Source of the DNA: a bacterium
GTDB lineage: Bacteria; Patescibacteriota; Saccharimonadia; Saccharimonadales; UBA4665
Assembly (NCBI GenBank): GCA_021811625.1
Contig: JAJZNU010000005.1
Coordinates: 1 to 64,000, forward strand
Direction: 5' to 3'
Length of the DNA stretch: 64,000 nt
Below are positions 58,128-63,256 of the stretch, one piece after another (positions within the stretch are counted from its first letter, which is position 1; every line of letters starts with the position of its first letter). Both the position numbers and the translations under genes were made by a program. Under the pieces are notes generated by a model. That model saw nothing but the letters and a program-made list of their open reading frames with translations. It did not search any database and had not been told where the DNA came from.

Positions 58128-59909
58128 CTAGGCAGCGATCTCGAATCGTTTCAGTTGTTTTTCGCCGGCTTTGGTATGAACTTTTTGTAGTTTTAGCAGT
58201 TCGGCGTAAATTCCGTTGCTGCGGGCTAGTTGTGAGGGGGAGCCGATCTCTCTAACCTTACCGCCGTCAATGGTGATGATCCGATCGACTCCGGCTATGG
58301 TGCTGAGCCGGTGCGCAATGATTAAGGTTGTTCGCCCCTCCATCAGCCGTTCCAAGGCTTCTTGAACGCGCCGTTCGCTCTTGGTATCCAAACTGGAAGT
58401 TGCCTCATCGAGAATTAGTATCGGGGCGTCTTTGAGCAAGGCCCGGGCAATGGCAATCCGCTGCTTCTGTCCGCCGCTGAGCCGTATGCCTCTCTCACCG
58501 ATTTCACTGTCGTAGCCGGATTCGAATTGCTGAATGAATTCATGAGCGTTAGCCGATTTGGCGGCGGCGATAATATCTTTCTCGCTGGCAGTGGGCGATC
58601 CGTAGGCGATATTATCTCTTATGGTTCCGCTGAATAGCGCCGGTTCCTGAAAGACAACCCCTATATTAGACCGCAAAGATTTTTGCGTCACATCGTTTAT
58701 ATCCTGGTCGTCGATCGTGATGGAGCCGCTGGTGACTTCGTAAAACCGCAACAGCAGGCTGGTGACCGTGGTTTTACCCTGCCCGCTTTCACCAACTAGC
58801 GCCGCTTTCATCCCCGGCTCCAATGTAAAACTGAGCCCGTTGAGCACCTTAACGGTCGGGTCATAACCGAATACGACATCGTTAAATTCCACTAAACCGG
58901 CTTTGACTCTAAGCCTTTTGGCTCCTTTTTTGTCACTGATCTCCGGCTTTACATCCATGGCCTCGAAGTAGTCCTTAGTGTTGGCAATCGCCCTCTGGGA
59001 CTGATCTACCAGAAAGCTTATGCTGAATATGGGAATTCTGATGAGCATCGAGTACTGGATTAACAGGACCATGGTACCGACGCCGTAAACTCCGTGAGCC
59101 GTTTCGATAAAGACGTAAATAAAAACAACTAAGAATATAACGTTTAAGACCAGCCGCCGGATAATATCTTGGCGATGCCAAAACCGACTTTGCGGGCGGG
59201 TGGTGGCTACAACTTTTTCATAACGACGGCTGAAGAGCTTTAATTCCCTGATTTCCTGGATAAAACTTTTGACGACTTTAATCTGCCCGATACTCTCGGC
59301 GAACCGGCCACTGGCATTGTCGAGTTCCTCGTTAATGGTTCTCTGATAGCCCTGCCACTTACTGCTGGTTTTAATGGTAAACCCAATAAAGATTGGATAC
59401 AGCGTCAGCAGCATCAGCGCTACCGGCCAAGCATAGATCGCGACTATTATTAGGGTGAACACTGTTGAGAAGATAAATTGCAAGAAGTTATTGCTGACCA
59501 TCTGAATGAAGTCGGTGATCTGATTTATTCCCCGGTTCATCCGGTTAATTATTTTCCCCGTCAACTCACTATCAAAATACGACTGGGGCAGACTCATCAG
59601 TTGCTCGTAGTAGCGCTGGCTCATCAACCTCTGCAGTTTTACAGAGAGCATATCGCCAAGGTAACCGCCCAGATTGGACAACAGGGTCTGACCGACATCT
59701 GTCAAAAAGATCAACACCGCAAACACGCCAACCAGAAAGACATCGGCTTTCCCTCCGGACAATAGCTTCGTAACCTGGTCAATGGCCCCTTTGGTGAACA
59801 GCGGCTGCAGCTGACTCATTCCGGCTAGCAGTATGGTGAATACGCCAACCCCGACGTAATAACGCCATAGCGAGGAGCCAAATTTAAAAATTCTTAGGAT
59901 ATGTTTCAC
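58128..59909 (-). CDS. ABC transporter, fused permease and ATPase
   Basis: 593 aa MsbA-type half exporter. Six transmembrane helices in residues about 15-310, then the ATPase: Walker A GESGQGKTT near 370, signature RLSGGQKQRIAIARALL, Walker B ILILDEATSSLD and switch His in IIAHRLSTI. Works as a homodimer (or with another half transporter elsewhere) to export lipids, peptides or drugs. Transcribed toward the FKBP gene; upstream lies the structured 59910-60763 region. Confidence 0.93.
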   Translation of the reverse strand: MKHILRIFKFGSSLWRYYVGVGVFTILLAGMSQLQPLFTKGAIDQVTKLLSGGKADVFLVGVFAVLIFLTDVGQTLLSNLGGYLGDMLSVKLQRLMSQRYYEQLMSLPQSYFDSELTGKIINRMNRGINQITDFIQMVSNNFLQFIFSTVFTLIIVAIYAWPVALMLLTLYPIFIGFTIKTSSKWQGYQRTINEELDNASGRFAESIGQIKVVKSFIQEIRELKLFSRRYEKVVATTRPQSRFWHRQDIIRRLVLNVIFLVVFIYVFIETAHGVYGVGTMVLLIQYSMLIRIPIFSISFLVDQSQRAIANTKDYFEAMDVKPEISDKKGAKRLRVKAGLVEFNDVVFGYDPTVKVLNGLSFTLEPGMKAALVGESGQGKTTVTSLLLRFYEVTSGSITIDDQDINDVTQKSLRSNIGVVFQEPALFSGTIRDNIAYGSPTASEKDIIAAAKSANAHEFIQQFESGYDSEIGERGIRLSGGQKQRIAIARALLKDAPILILDEATSSLDTKSERRVQEALERLMEGRTTLIIAHRLSTIAGVDRIITIDGGKVREIGSPSQLARSNGIYAELLKLQKVHTKAGEKQLKRFEIAA

Positions 59910-60763
59910 TTGTGCTCAAGTATATACGATCAATCACTTTTTCGTCTTCTCAATAAAGCTACAGTACCGGCGAGTTTCCTTAAGAAGAGGAAGAAGAAAC
60001 AGGCATGATATGTATGGAGGGGGAGCACCGCGTAAAAAAACGGCAGGAGGAATGGTCAGAGAATGGTTGCACGGTAATGGTCAACGCGTCAAAACTCATG
60101 GCATCCGCCACTGCGCTGTGAGGAGGTCAGCCTCTATACCGTGCAACCACGAATGTCGTTGAACATTCTATTCCCTGAGGAACAGTCACCCTAAGTTACT
60201 CCTTTCACCTAAAGACTGTTCCGCGATAGACGCCGGTCCCCTTAAAGGTCTGGTATACCCGCAACCATAGCTAGGCCATGTTTTGACTTCGCGTTTGGCG
60301 TGGGTTCCTTAAGGGGACCAGCGGAAATGCGCGACATATCACCGTAGTAAAGAATTGTGAAATGCCGCGGCGAAAGCGGAGGAGAAAGAGCTCGAGACTC
60401 CTAGAACACCTCTCCCCGGCCCGGGATCGCACAACGCTGCATGTGGTTGCGATCGGCAACGTTGCTTATCCCTGGAAAGAACTACTCGCTTCGCTTTGCA
60501 TAAGTGGTACCATGCAGTTCAGCGTCGGCGTGCCAAAAAAATTATTTAATCAGATAGTGCGAAACAGCAACCCTACCCGATTTTTACGTGTAAGATGGTT
60601 GGTCCGCACTACCTAAACTTAACCCTTTTTGTAATATCATGCCTGTTAAGGTGCTAAATACCGTAGGAATCCATCTAGACAGTAATGTCCCGGACTCAAC
60701 CGCGGCAAAGCGATAATCATGCTACACCCTAAAACACCCCTAGTCAAGGCACGTTTGTGATTC
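59910..60763. other. 854-bp intergenic region without recognisable gene
   Basis: Between the pheT stop and the ABC transporter start. Short frames exist (for example 60362-60616 plus strand), but they lack a Shine-Dalgarno and family resemblance. The left half holds the multi-stem element below; the right half (60325-60763) is unremarkable. I searched by eye for RNase P, tmRNA, SRP and 6S cores and saw none. Confidence 0.6.
60034..60324 (-). ncRNA. Candidate structured RNA, three long perfect stems
   Basis: Stem A: GGTTGCACGGTA (60065-60076) with 60137-60148, 12 bp, enclosing a GAGG/CCTC hairpin (60120-60134). Stem B: GGAACAGTC (60179-60187) with 60214-60222, 9 bp. Stem C: GGTCCCCTTAA (60235-60245) with 60309-60319, 11 bp, enclosing a CCATG/CGTGG stem. 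All three outer stems have no mismatch or G-U pair. Seven Ts on the minus strand (60040-60034) could end a minus-strand transcript of about 290 nt. The strand is a guess; a DNA-level element is possible. Confidence 0.45.
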
Positions 60764-63256
60764 CTACAGCCGAACGGCATGGTACTTTTCTTTAGCCGAG
60801 GCCGCCATCTTGTCAAGCAGTTCGTTAACCTCGCCGTCCACCATGGTTTTTAGATAACTGAAAATGGTTAATCGAAAGGTGACGTGTTTGTCGGAGGAGT
60901 CGTCCGAAGCATAAATGTCCAGGGGCATCAATGCGGTGTGGGTATCATCCGGTGCCAGCTTGTCGAGTTCCGCTTGCAAAAACCCTGCCAGTTCCGCGTA
61001 CGGTAGACGCTTATCGACTCTAAGAGATATGTCTTGCTCGATCTTCGGATATTTGGACAGCGGCACATACGTTTTTTGCCGGTTAAGAACTTCACTTAAT
61101 GCCGTGGTGTCGAGTTCAAACCCGGCGCAGTACTTAGGAAGCTTCAGACTTTTTGTGACGGTGGGTTTAAACTCTCCGATAATTCCCAAGAATTTGTCAT
61201 TGTTCTCCAGGGTTACAAAAGCGGATCTTCCGGGCTGGTAGGGTTCCATAACGGCGAATGAAGGCATTGACGACTCCAGCGGTTGGAATTTTAATGCGGC
61301 GGGAATTAGTTCGTTCAGAAATTTCCGAGCCCGGTAATACGGAGCTGTAGTTTTAGCCAATTTGTCGTTAGCGGTGATGACGAACGCGGTATACTCGTCC
61401 TGTTTAGGGAGGTTTTCGTCGTTCATCCCCCTTTCTTTGGTGTGAGCTCGCCCTATTTCGAAAAGGGCAAATTCCTCGTATCCGCTCTTGATGTTCTGGC
61501 GCACTTTATCTAGCAGGCTCGGCATCAGAGACAGTCGGTAATACTGTAGATCGGGACTCAGCGCGTTAGCGAGCTGATAAGCTTTCGATCTGTCTTGACC
61601 CGTTTTGTCTAGTAAATTACCGTGGACAAACGTATAGGTTAATACTTCGTTGGCCCCGGCCGCACGTAATTTTTGACGGATTACGGCTTTAGCATTTAAC
61701 AGAGGATCACAGGACGCCGGCGATATATTGCGCAGGGGTAGGGCTTGGGGTAGCTTGTCGTAGCCGTTTAATCGTCCAACCTCTTCTATGATATCCTCCG
61801 GTATGGCTATATCCGTTCGCCAGAAAGGTGGCTCGATTGTCAGGCTGTCGACTGAAGTCTGGCATTTAAATTCAACGTTCTCAAGCAGCGTGGTAATTTG
61901 TTGTTCGTTAAGATCGAGGCCCAAACGTTGGTTAATGAACTCACCACTTACTTTGGTTGTTTTTATTGATTCAGGGAGACTGTTAGCGGTGTCCATGATG
62001 TCGCTAGCAATACTTCCGCCGGCCTCGTTAATAACCTCGCCAACAACCTTGGTAAGAACAGCCCGGTTTTGTCGGGAACTCTGGCCTTTCGTGAAACGAG
62101 TCGCGGCATCGGAAAAGACGCCCAACTGCATACAGCTGCGACGAATGTTATACATATCGAAGGTGGCACATTCTAAGATAATGTTTTTGGTAGTATCATC
62201 AACTTCGGTGTCGCTGCCACCCATAATACCAGCCAAACCAAGAGGTTTCTTGTCTCCGGAAATTACGATATTGTCGCCATTTAGCTCGACCATTTTGCCA
62301 TTTAATAGTCGGAGTTTTTCGCCCTCTTCAGCCCGACGGACAATCAGGTTTGGGCTGCCGTCATTCAATGCTTTTATCTTATCGTAGTCATAGGCATGTA
62401 GCGGTTGCCCGCTCAAAAGCATGTAGTAATTTGTCAAGTCGACGACGTTATTGATCGGCTTGAGACCCAGCTTGATTATAGCGGTCTGTAGCTGAAAGGA
62501 ACTTGGCCCCACCCTGATACCGGCGACGGTTACCGCAGTGAAACGGGGAACCAGTTCGGAAAGATCGTTCCGCACCTTGAATTCCAGCCGCTCTTGCCCG
62601 ACATCGACAGAATCGGGGTGCTCTTTATACCATTTCGGCGAAGAAAATTTATGCCCGCAGATGCCGGCAATCTCGCGGGCTATACCCAGCTGGCCGAAAC
62701 AATCCGGGCGATGCGTGAACATTTTATTCTCAATTTCAATGATAGTGTCATCAAGACCATACGCGCCGGCAAAATCTTGTCCAGGCTCAGCGCCGGCGGG
62801 CAATTCTATGATACCTTCGTGATTATCTCCTAAATCCATTTCTCGACTACTCGCCAACATGCCGTTGCTCTTGATGCCGCGAATGTCTCTGACCGCGAGT
62901 TTGAAGGGATCTTTGGAATAACTTTCAGGTACTATTTTCCCGGGAGGTATCCAGACAACGTCAAGTCCCTCCCTGACGTTTGGGGCTCCACAGACGACCT
63001 GAACTAGTCCATCGGCGTTTCGCTCGACTTCTCCGACACTCCGGTGATCATCTATTAAGCAGACATGAAGATGGTCGGAGTTATTGTGAGGTTCGCTCTT
63101 TACTACCCTCGCCGTAACAATACCTGAATATTTTTCCTGGTAATCGCTAGTTTCTTCAACGGCACCGAGACGGCTGCCGATCAAATCAACCAGCTCCGGG
63201 ATTGGAGGTAGATCAAAGTCCAGGTACTGGCTGACTTCTTTGAGGCTGACTTTCAT
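60764..63256 (-). CDS. pheT: Phenylalanyl-tRNA synthetase, beta subunit
   Basis: 830 aa, usual length. N-terminal EMAP-like tRNA-binding domain (about 40-150), B3/B4 editing domain, then B5 and the class II core-like domain (about 480-700), and a C-terminal ferredoxin-fold anticodon-binding domain (about 735-830, FRLTIFSYLKTMVDGEVNELLDKM). Forms the alpha2-beta2 enzyme with PheS upstream (34-nt gap). Confidence 0.96.
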   Translation of the reverse strand: MKVSLKEVSQYLDFDLPPIPELVDLIGSRLGAVEETSDYQEKYSGIVTARVVKSEPHNNSDHLHVCLIDDHRSVGEVERNADGLVQVVCGAPNVREGLDVVWIPPGKIVPESYSKDPFKLAVRDIRGIKSNGMLASSREMDLGDNHEGIIELPAGAEPGQDFAGAYGLDDTIIEIENKMFTHRPDCFGQLGIAREIAGICGHKFSSPKWYKEHPDSVDVGQERLEFKVRNDLSELVPRFTAVTVAGIRVGPSSFQLQTAIIKLGLKPINNVVDLTNYYMLLSGQPLHAYDYDKIKALNDGSPNLIVRRAEEGEKLRLLNGKMVELNGDNIVISGDKKPLGLAGIMGGSDTEVDDTTKNIILECATFDMYNIRRSCMQLGVFSDAATRFTKGQSSRQNRAVLTKVVGEVINEAGGSIASDIMDTANSLPESIKTTKVSGEFINQRLGLDLNEQQITTLLENVEFKCQTSVDSLTIEPPFWRTDIAIPEDIIEEVGRLNGYDKLPQALPLRNISPASCDPLLNAKAVIRQKLRAAGANEVLTYTFVHGNLLDKTGQDRSKAYQLANALSPDLQYYRLSLMPSLLDKVRQNIKSGYEEFALFEIGRAHTKERGMNDENLPKQDEYTAFVITANDKLAKTTAPYYRARKFLNELIPAALKFQPLESSMPSFAVMEPYQPGRSAFVTLENNDKFLGIIGEFKPTVTKSLKLPKYCAGFELDTTALSEVLNRQKTYVPLSKYPKIEQDISLRVDKRLPYAELAGFLQAELDKLAPDDTHTALMPLDIYASDDSSDKHVTFRLTIFSYLKTMVDGEVNELLDKMAASAKEKYHAVRL

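Follow-up and report, generated by a model that had tools for sequence, protein, structure and literature searches.

The window, by which I mean the whole stretch of 64,000 nt that was analysed, belongs to contig JAJZNU010000005.1 (GCA_021811625.1) from a genome of Saccharimonadales UBA4665, here called G000. Between its genes for pheT and an ABC exporter lies a gap of 854 bp (59910-60763) in which, as the initial annotation had stated, no credible protein gene is present. A structured RNA had been suspected at 60034-60324, on the basis of three consecutive perfect stems of 12, 9 and 11 bp. All three stems exist, with lengths of 13, 9 and 11 bp, and their presence by chance is indeed improbable: on the minus strand, this segment folds at -113.8 kcal/mol (z -4.93), a value equalled by none of 200 shuffles, and the plus strand folds more weakly (z -3.56). 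For the whole gap, z-scores of -5.6 to -5.9 are obtained on the minus strand.

Folding of the entire gap reveals a perfect helix, P2, that encloses all three of these stems. Because this long-range helix had been missed, the proposed extent was too small; the whole unit spans about 60747 to 59937, and is approximately 2.5 times longer. A run of seven T on the minus strand does occur as described (60034-60040), and it is internal to the RNA and not its terminator. In minus-strand order, the locus consists of a promoter-like site, a 5' hairpin (P1), the conserved element RGYACNUU, the closing helix P2, a branched interior and a 3' hairpin (P3) (Table 1). The RNA measures about 750 nt here, or 650 nt counting both P2 arms. 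The hosts are reduced, host-dependent (episymbiotic) bacteria whose genomes mostly measure 0.6 to 1.3 Mb; at this size, carrying 750 bp of non-coding DNA is expensive.

Table 1. Positions of genes and RNA elements in the window
Feature	Position	Strand	Remarks
pheT	60764..63256	-	Same-strand upstream neighbour; 89 of 93 family genomes have an orthologue
ABC exporter	58128..59909	-	Downstream neighbour; missing here in some RNA-bearing genomes
Promoter-like site TTGACT-17-TAGCAT	60719..60747	-	13 nt before P1
P1, 5' hairpin	60661..60705	-	Outer and inner stem separated by a UU bulge of 2 nt; the inner stem is GAGUCC/GGAUUC
Conserved element AGCACCUU (consensus RGYACNUU)	60648..60655	-	Between P1 and P2
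P2 5' arm AACAGGCAUGAUAU	60634..60647	-	14-bp closing helix, perfect
First interior branch, long hairpin	60552..60614	-	Hairpin close behind P2 in most homologues
Interior stem-loop with stem 3 of the initial annotation	60231..60323	-	60231-60245 with 60309-60323; 15 nt, 93%, perfect 11-bp core
Interior hairpin with stem 2	60179..60222	-	60179-60187 with 60214-60222; 9 bp, perfect
Interior stem-loop with stem 1	60064..60149	-	60064-60076 with 60137-60149; 13 bp, perfect
P2 3' arm AUAUCAUGCCUGUU	59998..60011	-	Pairs with 60634-60647; arms 622 nt apart
P3, 3' hairpin	59937..59997	-	Directly after P2; imperfect in window

Homologous copies

A blastn search with the gap sequence retrieved no homologue, even within the genus; the pheT orthologue of G001, the one other genome from the same genus, is only 55% identical. 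G001 nevertheless shows the same pheT-gap-exporter order, with a gap of 809 bp and the strings AGCACCTTAACAGGCATGAT ... ATCATGCCTGTT, and G017, from another genus, contains GACAGGCGTGAT ... ATCACGCCTGTC at the same place, with two pairs altered on both sides. Homologues were sought by scanning GTDB contigs with a pheT alignment and folding all long gaps, followed by searches with the 5' motif and with a covariance model, R1. These procedures yielded 14 copies in 13 genomes, i.e. 13 copies in 12 other Saccharibacteria genomes besides that in the window, spread over at least four families within the order. The window's own family is represented by G000, G001, G009, G012 (a tandem pair), G015, G017, G025, G039, G040 and G058, and three other families by G098, G067 and G133. 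The weakest copies are those of G009 and G040, where P2 is short or bulged. Model R1 covers the 5' module only and was built without G058; it did find G058, where the 3' arm, located afterwards, proved a perfect 14-bp match. A MAFFT alignment that misplaced P1 was left out of the analysis.

The chromosomal gene order pheT, (C-terminal Gly-rich membrane protein), RNA, ABC, FKBP, TrxB is kept, and most copies either follow pheT or immediately precede the ABC exporter. G000 contains a single copy. G012 has two diverged tandem copies behind pheT (L143, 7041-8398), and both possess a P2 and a 3' hairpin of their own. Five copy-bearing pheT-exporter gaps have z-scores of -5.9 (window), -7.0, -11.3, -6.8 and -7.0, and folding sets the structured gaps apart from ordinary pheT-downstream gaps.

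Several candidates were not counted. A blastn match in G057 (L002) was rejected as an AT-rich chance similarity, and an R1 match in G117 lies inside an open frame. Although it folds well (z -5.4), the gap in G035 (L009/L123) is made of TGTCATTCCAGAC-type repeats, without P1 or RGYACNUU; in L123 (7041-7553), the pheT-exporter gap is full of TGTCATTCCAGAC / GATCTGGAATC-type repeats and the frame is absent. The R1 match in G280 (E 0.002) precedes protein genes and has a weak P2. There, at about 1460-2400 of the reverse complement of L341, a P1-like hairpin with a UU bulge and the motif GTTTGACAGGCATATC stand before protein-coding frames; this element is possibly a distant relative serving as an mRNA leader, or a product of chance.

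Most homologues have a promoter-like site with a 17-nt spacer, and in 10 of 13 copies such sites, some of them individually weak, are found 13-19 nt before the P1 bulge. Since the single site in the window is at chance level (1 found, 1.1 expected), it is the shared place of the sites that is taken as evidence. Together with the terminator-like hairpins that follow several copies, the promoter-like sites before the RNA support transcription of the minus strand, and judging from these predicted signals the large RNA is likely to be transcribed independently.

Conservation of the frame

For P2, ten sequences and 12 pairs were compared. Two-sided changes occur in 10 of the 12 pairs, and the number of cells with such changes is 28, versus 8.1 in shuffles; the covariation score is 0.661, against 0.288 +/- 0.042 for shuffled and at most 0.187 for slid alignments. 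Paired cells amount to 98.3% (31-45% when the partner is moved by 1-3 columns), a percentage that is biased upward because the arms were chosen as complementary. This selection bias is offset, only in part, by the fixed places of the arms, right after RGYACNUU and right before the P3 hairpin, and by a viral control, in which the best partner arm at the at least 104 loci with a chance 5' motif scored 10.2/12, versus 12/12 in five true members. No viral copy was verified among these at least 104 pattern matches.

P1 also covaries: its inner pairs 4 and 5 alternate between U-A and C-G and its outer pairs are highly varied, while its form (a stem, a UU/UC/UG bulge and an inner stem starting with GAG) is the same in most homologues. 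P3 is a perfect terminator with a U-tract in G098, G067 and the second copy of G012. This locus almost certainly encodes an RNA that is structured and conserved. The conserved parts, among them the frame helices P1 and P2, fall outside 60034-60324. The three stems of the initial annotation sit in the fast-evolving interior and have no backing from covariation, because no sequence words recur above chance in the interiors of different species.

An Rfam search of the window region gave no match at the gathering threshold and three sub-threshold chance matches (E 1.3-8.6). The homologous loci gave no Rfam match either, and the models of GOLLD, ROOL and OLE matched neither here nor there at thresholds up to E 1-10. 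The RNA is overlooked by Rfam as well as by standard annotation; no description of it was found in the open-access literature. The homologues in 12 other Saccharibacteria genomes and the compensatory changes in the closing helix support the earlier suggestion that this lineage has an undescribed RNA.

The variable interior

No sequence words common to species exceeded shuffles in the interior, which consists of several branches; every copy-bearing gap tested is strongly folded (z -5.9 to -11.3). Its contents differ between copies. G015, G039 and the first copy of G012 contain a canonical T-arm (5 bp, UUCRANY loop) beside an acceptor-like stem of 6-7 bp, three such minihelices versus 0.017 expected, with none on the antisense strand. 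They are located at L131 8975-9055, L125 7298-7393 and in the first copy of L143, and are followed by ACUGG or CUUGG. As ARAGORN calls two of the three as tRNAs and Infernal (E<=2) lists none as such, I refer to them only as tRNA-like.

Small open reading frames are present inside five copies. Those of G025 and G058 are homologous and encode DnaJ-type zinc fingers, and differ at 20, 19 and 37 positions in codon positions 1, 2 and 3, respectively, so that third positions account for the largest share. This CxxCxGxG zinc-finger frame of about 61 codons (L161 7290-7475, and L332 on the minus strand in G058) is shared within one genus, and also shows weak Pfam similarity to Anti-TRAP. The others are a zinc ribbon in G017, a Cys-rich frame in G067 and a frame of 34 codons in G040. 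In the window, the loop of the stem-2 hairpin holds AAAGGAG, followed by GUG and a candidate frame of 20 codons (motif at 60187-60205). The sequence AAAGGAGUAAC is common to the window and G001, but in different structural contexts, and may be a Shine-Dalgarno sequence.

Discussion

The reading that I favour, with a probability of roughly 0.6, is that Saccharibacteria possess an undescribed class of large structured RNA, which is transcribed independently from this locus and has a scaffold frame and an exchangeable interior. Comparison between copies shows that the frame (P1, RGYACNUU, P2 and P3) joins both ends and closes a multi-branched domain. As a scaffold, this frame would shelter or present the interior, whose cargo, depending on the species, would be a tRNA-like minihelix, a small zinc-finger ORF or hairpins only. 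The RNA would then work in trans, with a structural or assembly function, as proposed for GOLLD and ROOL, and not in cis as a leader of the exporter. A role as scaffold and payload, which is suggested by analogy, is tentative and in my estimate falls somewhat short of even odds. The further idea that a closed P1-P2-P3 frame with lineage-swapped payloads could provide episymbiotic bacteria with an RNA compartment or carrier is more speculative, and doubtful.

Alternatively, the conserved ends could be the pairing 5' and 3' untranslated regions of an mRNA for a tiny protein. The ORFs within G017, G025, G058, G067 and G040, two of them homologous and coding-like, would fit this, as would the presence of AAAGGAGUAAC before a possible GUG or UUG start in both the window and G001. 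However, the members have no protein in common, no convincing ORF is found in the window, G098, G133 or G012, some copies hold tRNA-like pieces instead, and the interior is strongly folded, which renders a tiny-protein mRNA unlikely. That the RNA is a leader acting in cis on the downstream ABC exporter, such as a giant riboswitch or attenuator, is suggested by its position directly upstream and on the same strand in the window, G001, G017, G039, G009, G098, G015 and G067. Constant association with one downstream gene, as a leader would show, is not observed: judging by names read from sequence, a NUDIX gene lies downstream in G025, where the order is pheT-RNA-NUDIX, and in G058, and the G012 tandem pair precedes an MMPL-type transporter. 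Since some genomes without the exporter at this place still have the RNA, it would not be the exporter's leader. Perfect terminators moreover close several copies, and in several genomes of the family pheT and the exporter are 2-152 bp apart and the RNA is absent. I consider an exporter leader quite improbable.

P2 could also represent the terminal inverted repeats of a small MITE-like mobile element, as inverted ends of 9-16 bp flank 325-677 nt of variable cargo and G012 carries a tandem pair. Such an element is very unlikely, as the window's genome has only one copy, most copies share one neighbourhood between pheT and the exporter or FKBP genes, the arms diverge by species yet remain complementary, and beyond the repeats there are further conserved elements, namely P1, P3 and promoter-like sites. 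That the hairpins arose by chance in non-coding DNA would agree with the unconserved interior sequence, but the covariation of P1 and P2 refutes this, and the z-scores and the viral control also stand against it, leaving it a negligible probability. A diverged RNase P RNA or tmRNA might come to mind since RF00010 is missing in G000 and G001 and no tmRNA is found above the cut-off in G000. RF00010 was detected in 36 of 40 genomes searched, and its absence in G000 and G001 may reflect missing sequence, as these bins are only 71-74% complete. Ordinary RNase P RNA occurs next to the large RNA in G017, G009, G012 and G015, and, as the initial annotation had noted in finding neither core, the locus matches neither RNase P RNA nor tmRNA even at E<=10; this identity is therefore extremely improbable.

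Among known RNAs, tmRNA resembles the Saccharibacteria RNA in its paired ends and in that the molecule may contain a tRNA-like piece as well as an ORF. However, the T-arm/acceptor piece of the large RNA is internal and optional, is lacking in most copies, and is followed by ACUGG or CUUGG instead of CCA; its paired ends form no acceptor/T-arm unit, and RF00023 has no match at the locus, nor has RF00010 for RNase P RNA. OLE is known in extremophilic Firmicutes. It is, like the large RNA, ornate and chromosomal, and about 600 nt in size. GOLLD is likewise a large, highly branched bacterial RNA, but it is encoded by phages and prophages, frequently in the vicinity of tRNA islands, whereas the large RNA occupies a conserved chromosomal place and conserves a short frame at its ends, not a 3' region. 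ROOL is a large RNA of many helices that includes a variable linker (PMC12286853); the large RNA too has multiple helices with the variable part inside; ROOL is phage- or prophage-associated, unlike the large RNA with its conserved chromosomal neighbourhood and no verified viral copy among the at least 104 matches.

Large structured bacterial RNAs are few, and the roles of GOLLD, ROOL and OLE are open or only partly known. The RNA described here differs from these three in sequence, host, genomic setting and conserved parts, and none of their Rfam models matches it. A frame held by compensatory change around a freely replaced interior offers a testable case for the evolution of ornate RNAs and the purpose of their interiors. 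Large ornate RNAs of the GOLLD/ROOL kind are the closest analogy, although the Saccharibacteria RNA is not a member, and since its conserved frame, enclosing a variable interior with tRNA-like pieces, takes up the same theme as GOLLD, ROOL and OLE, a role as structural scaffold is proposed.
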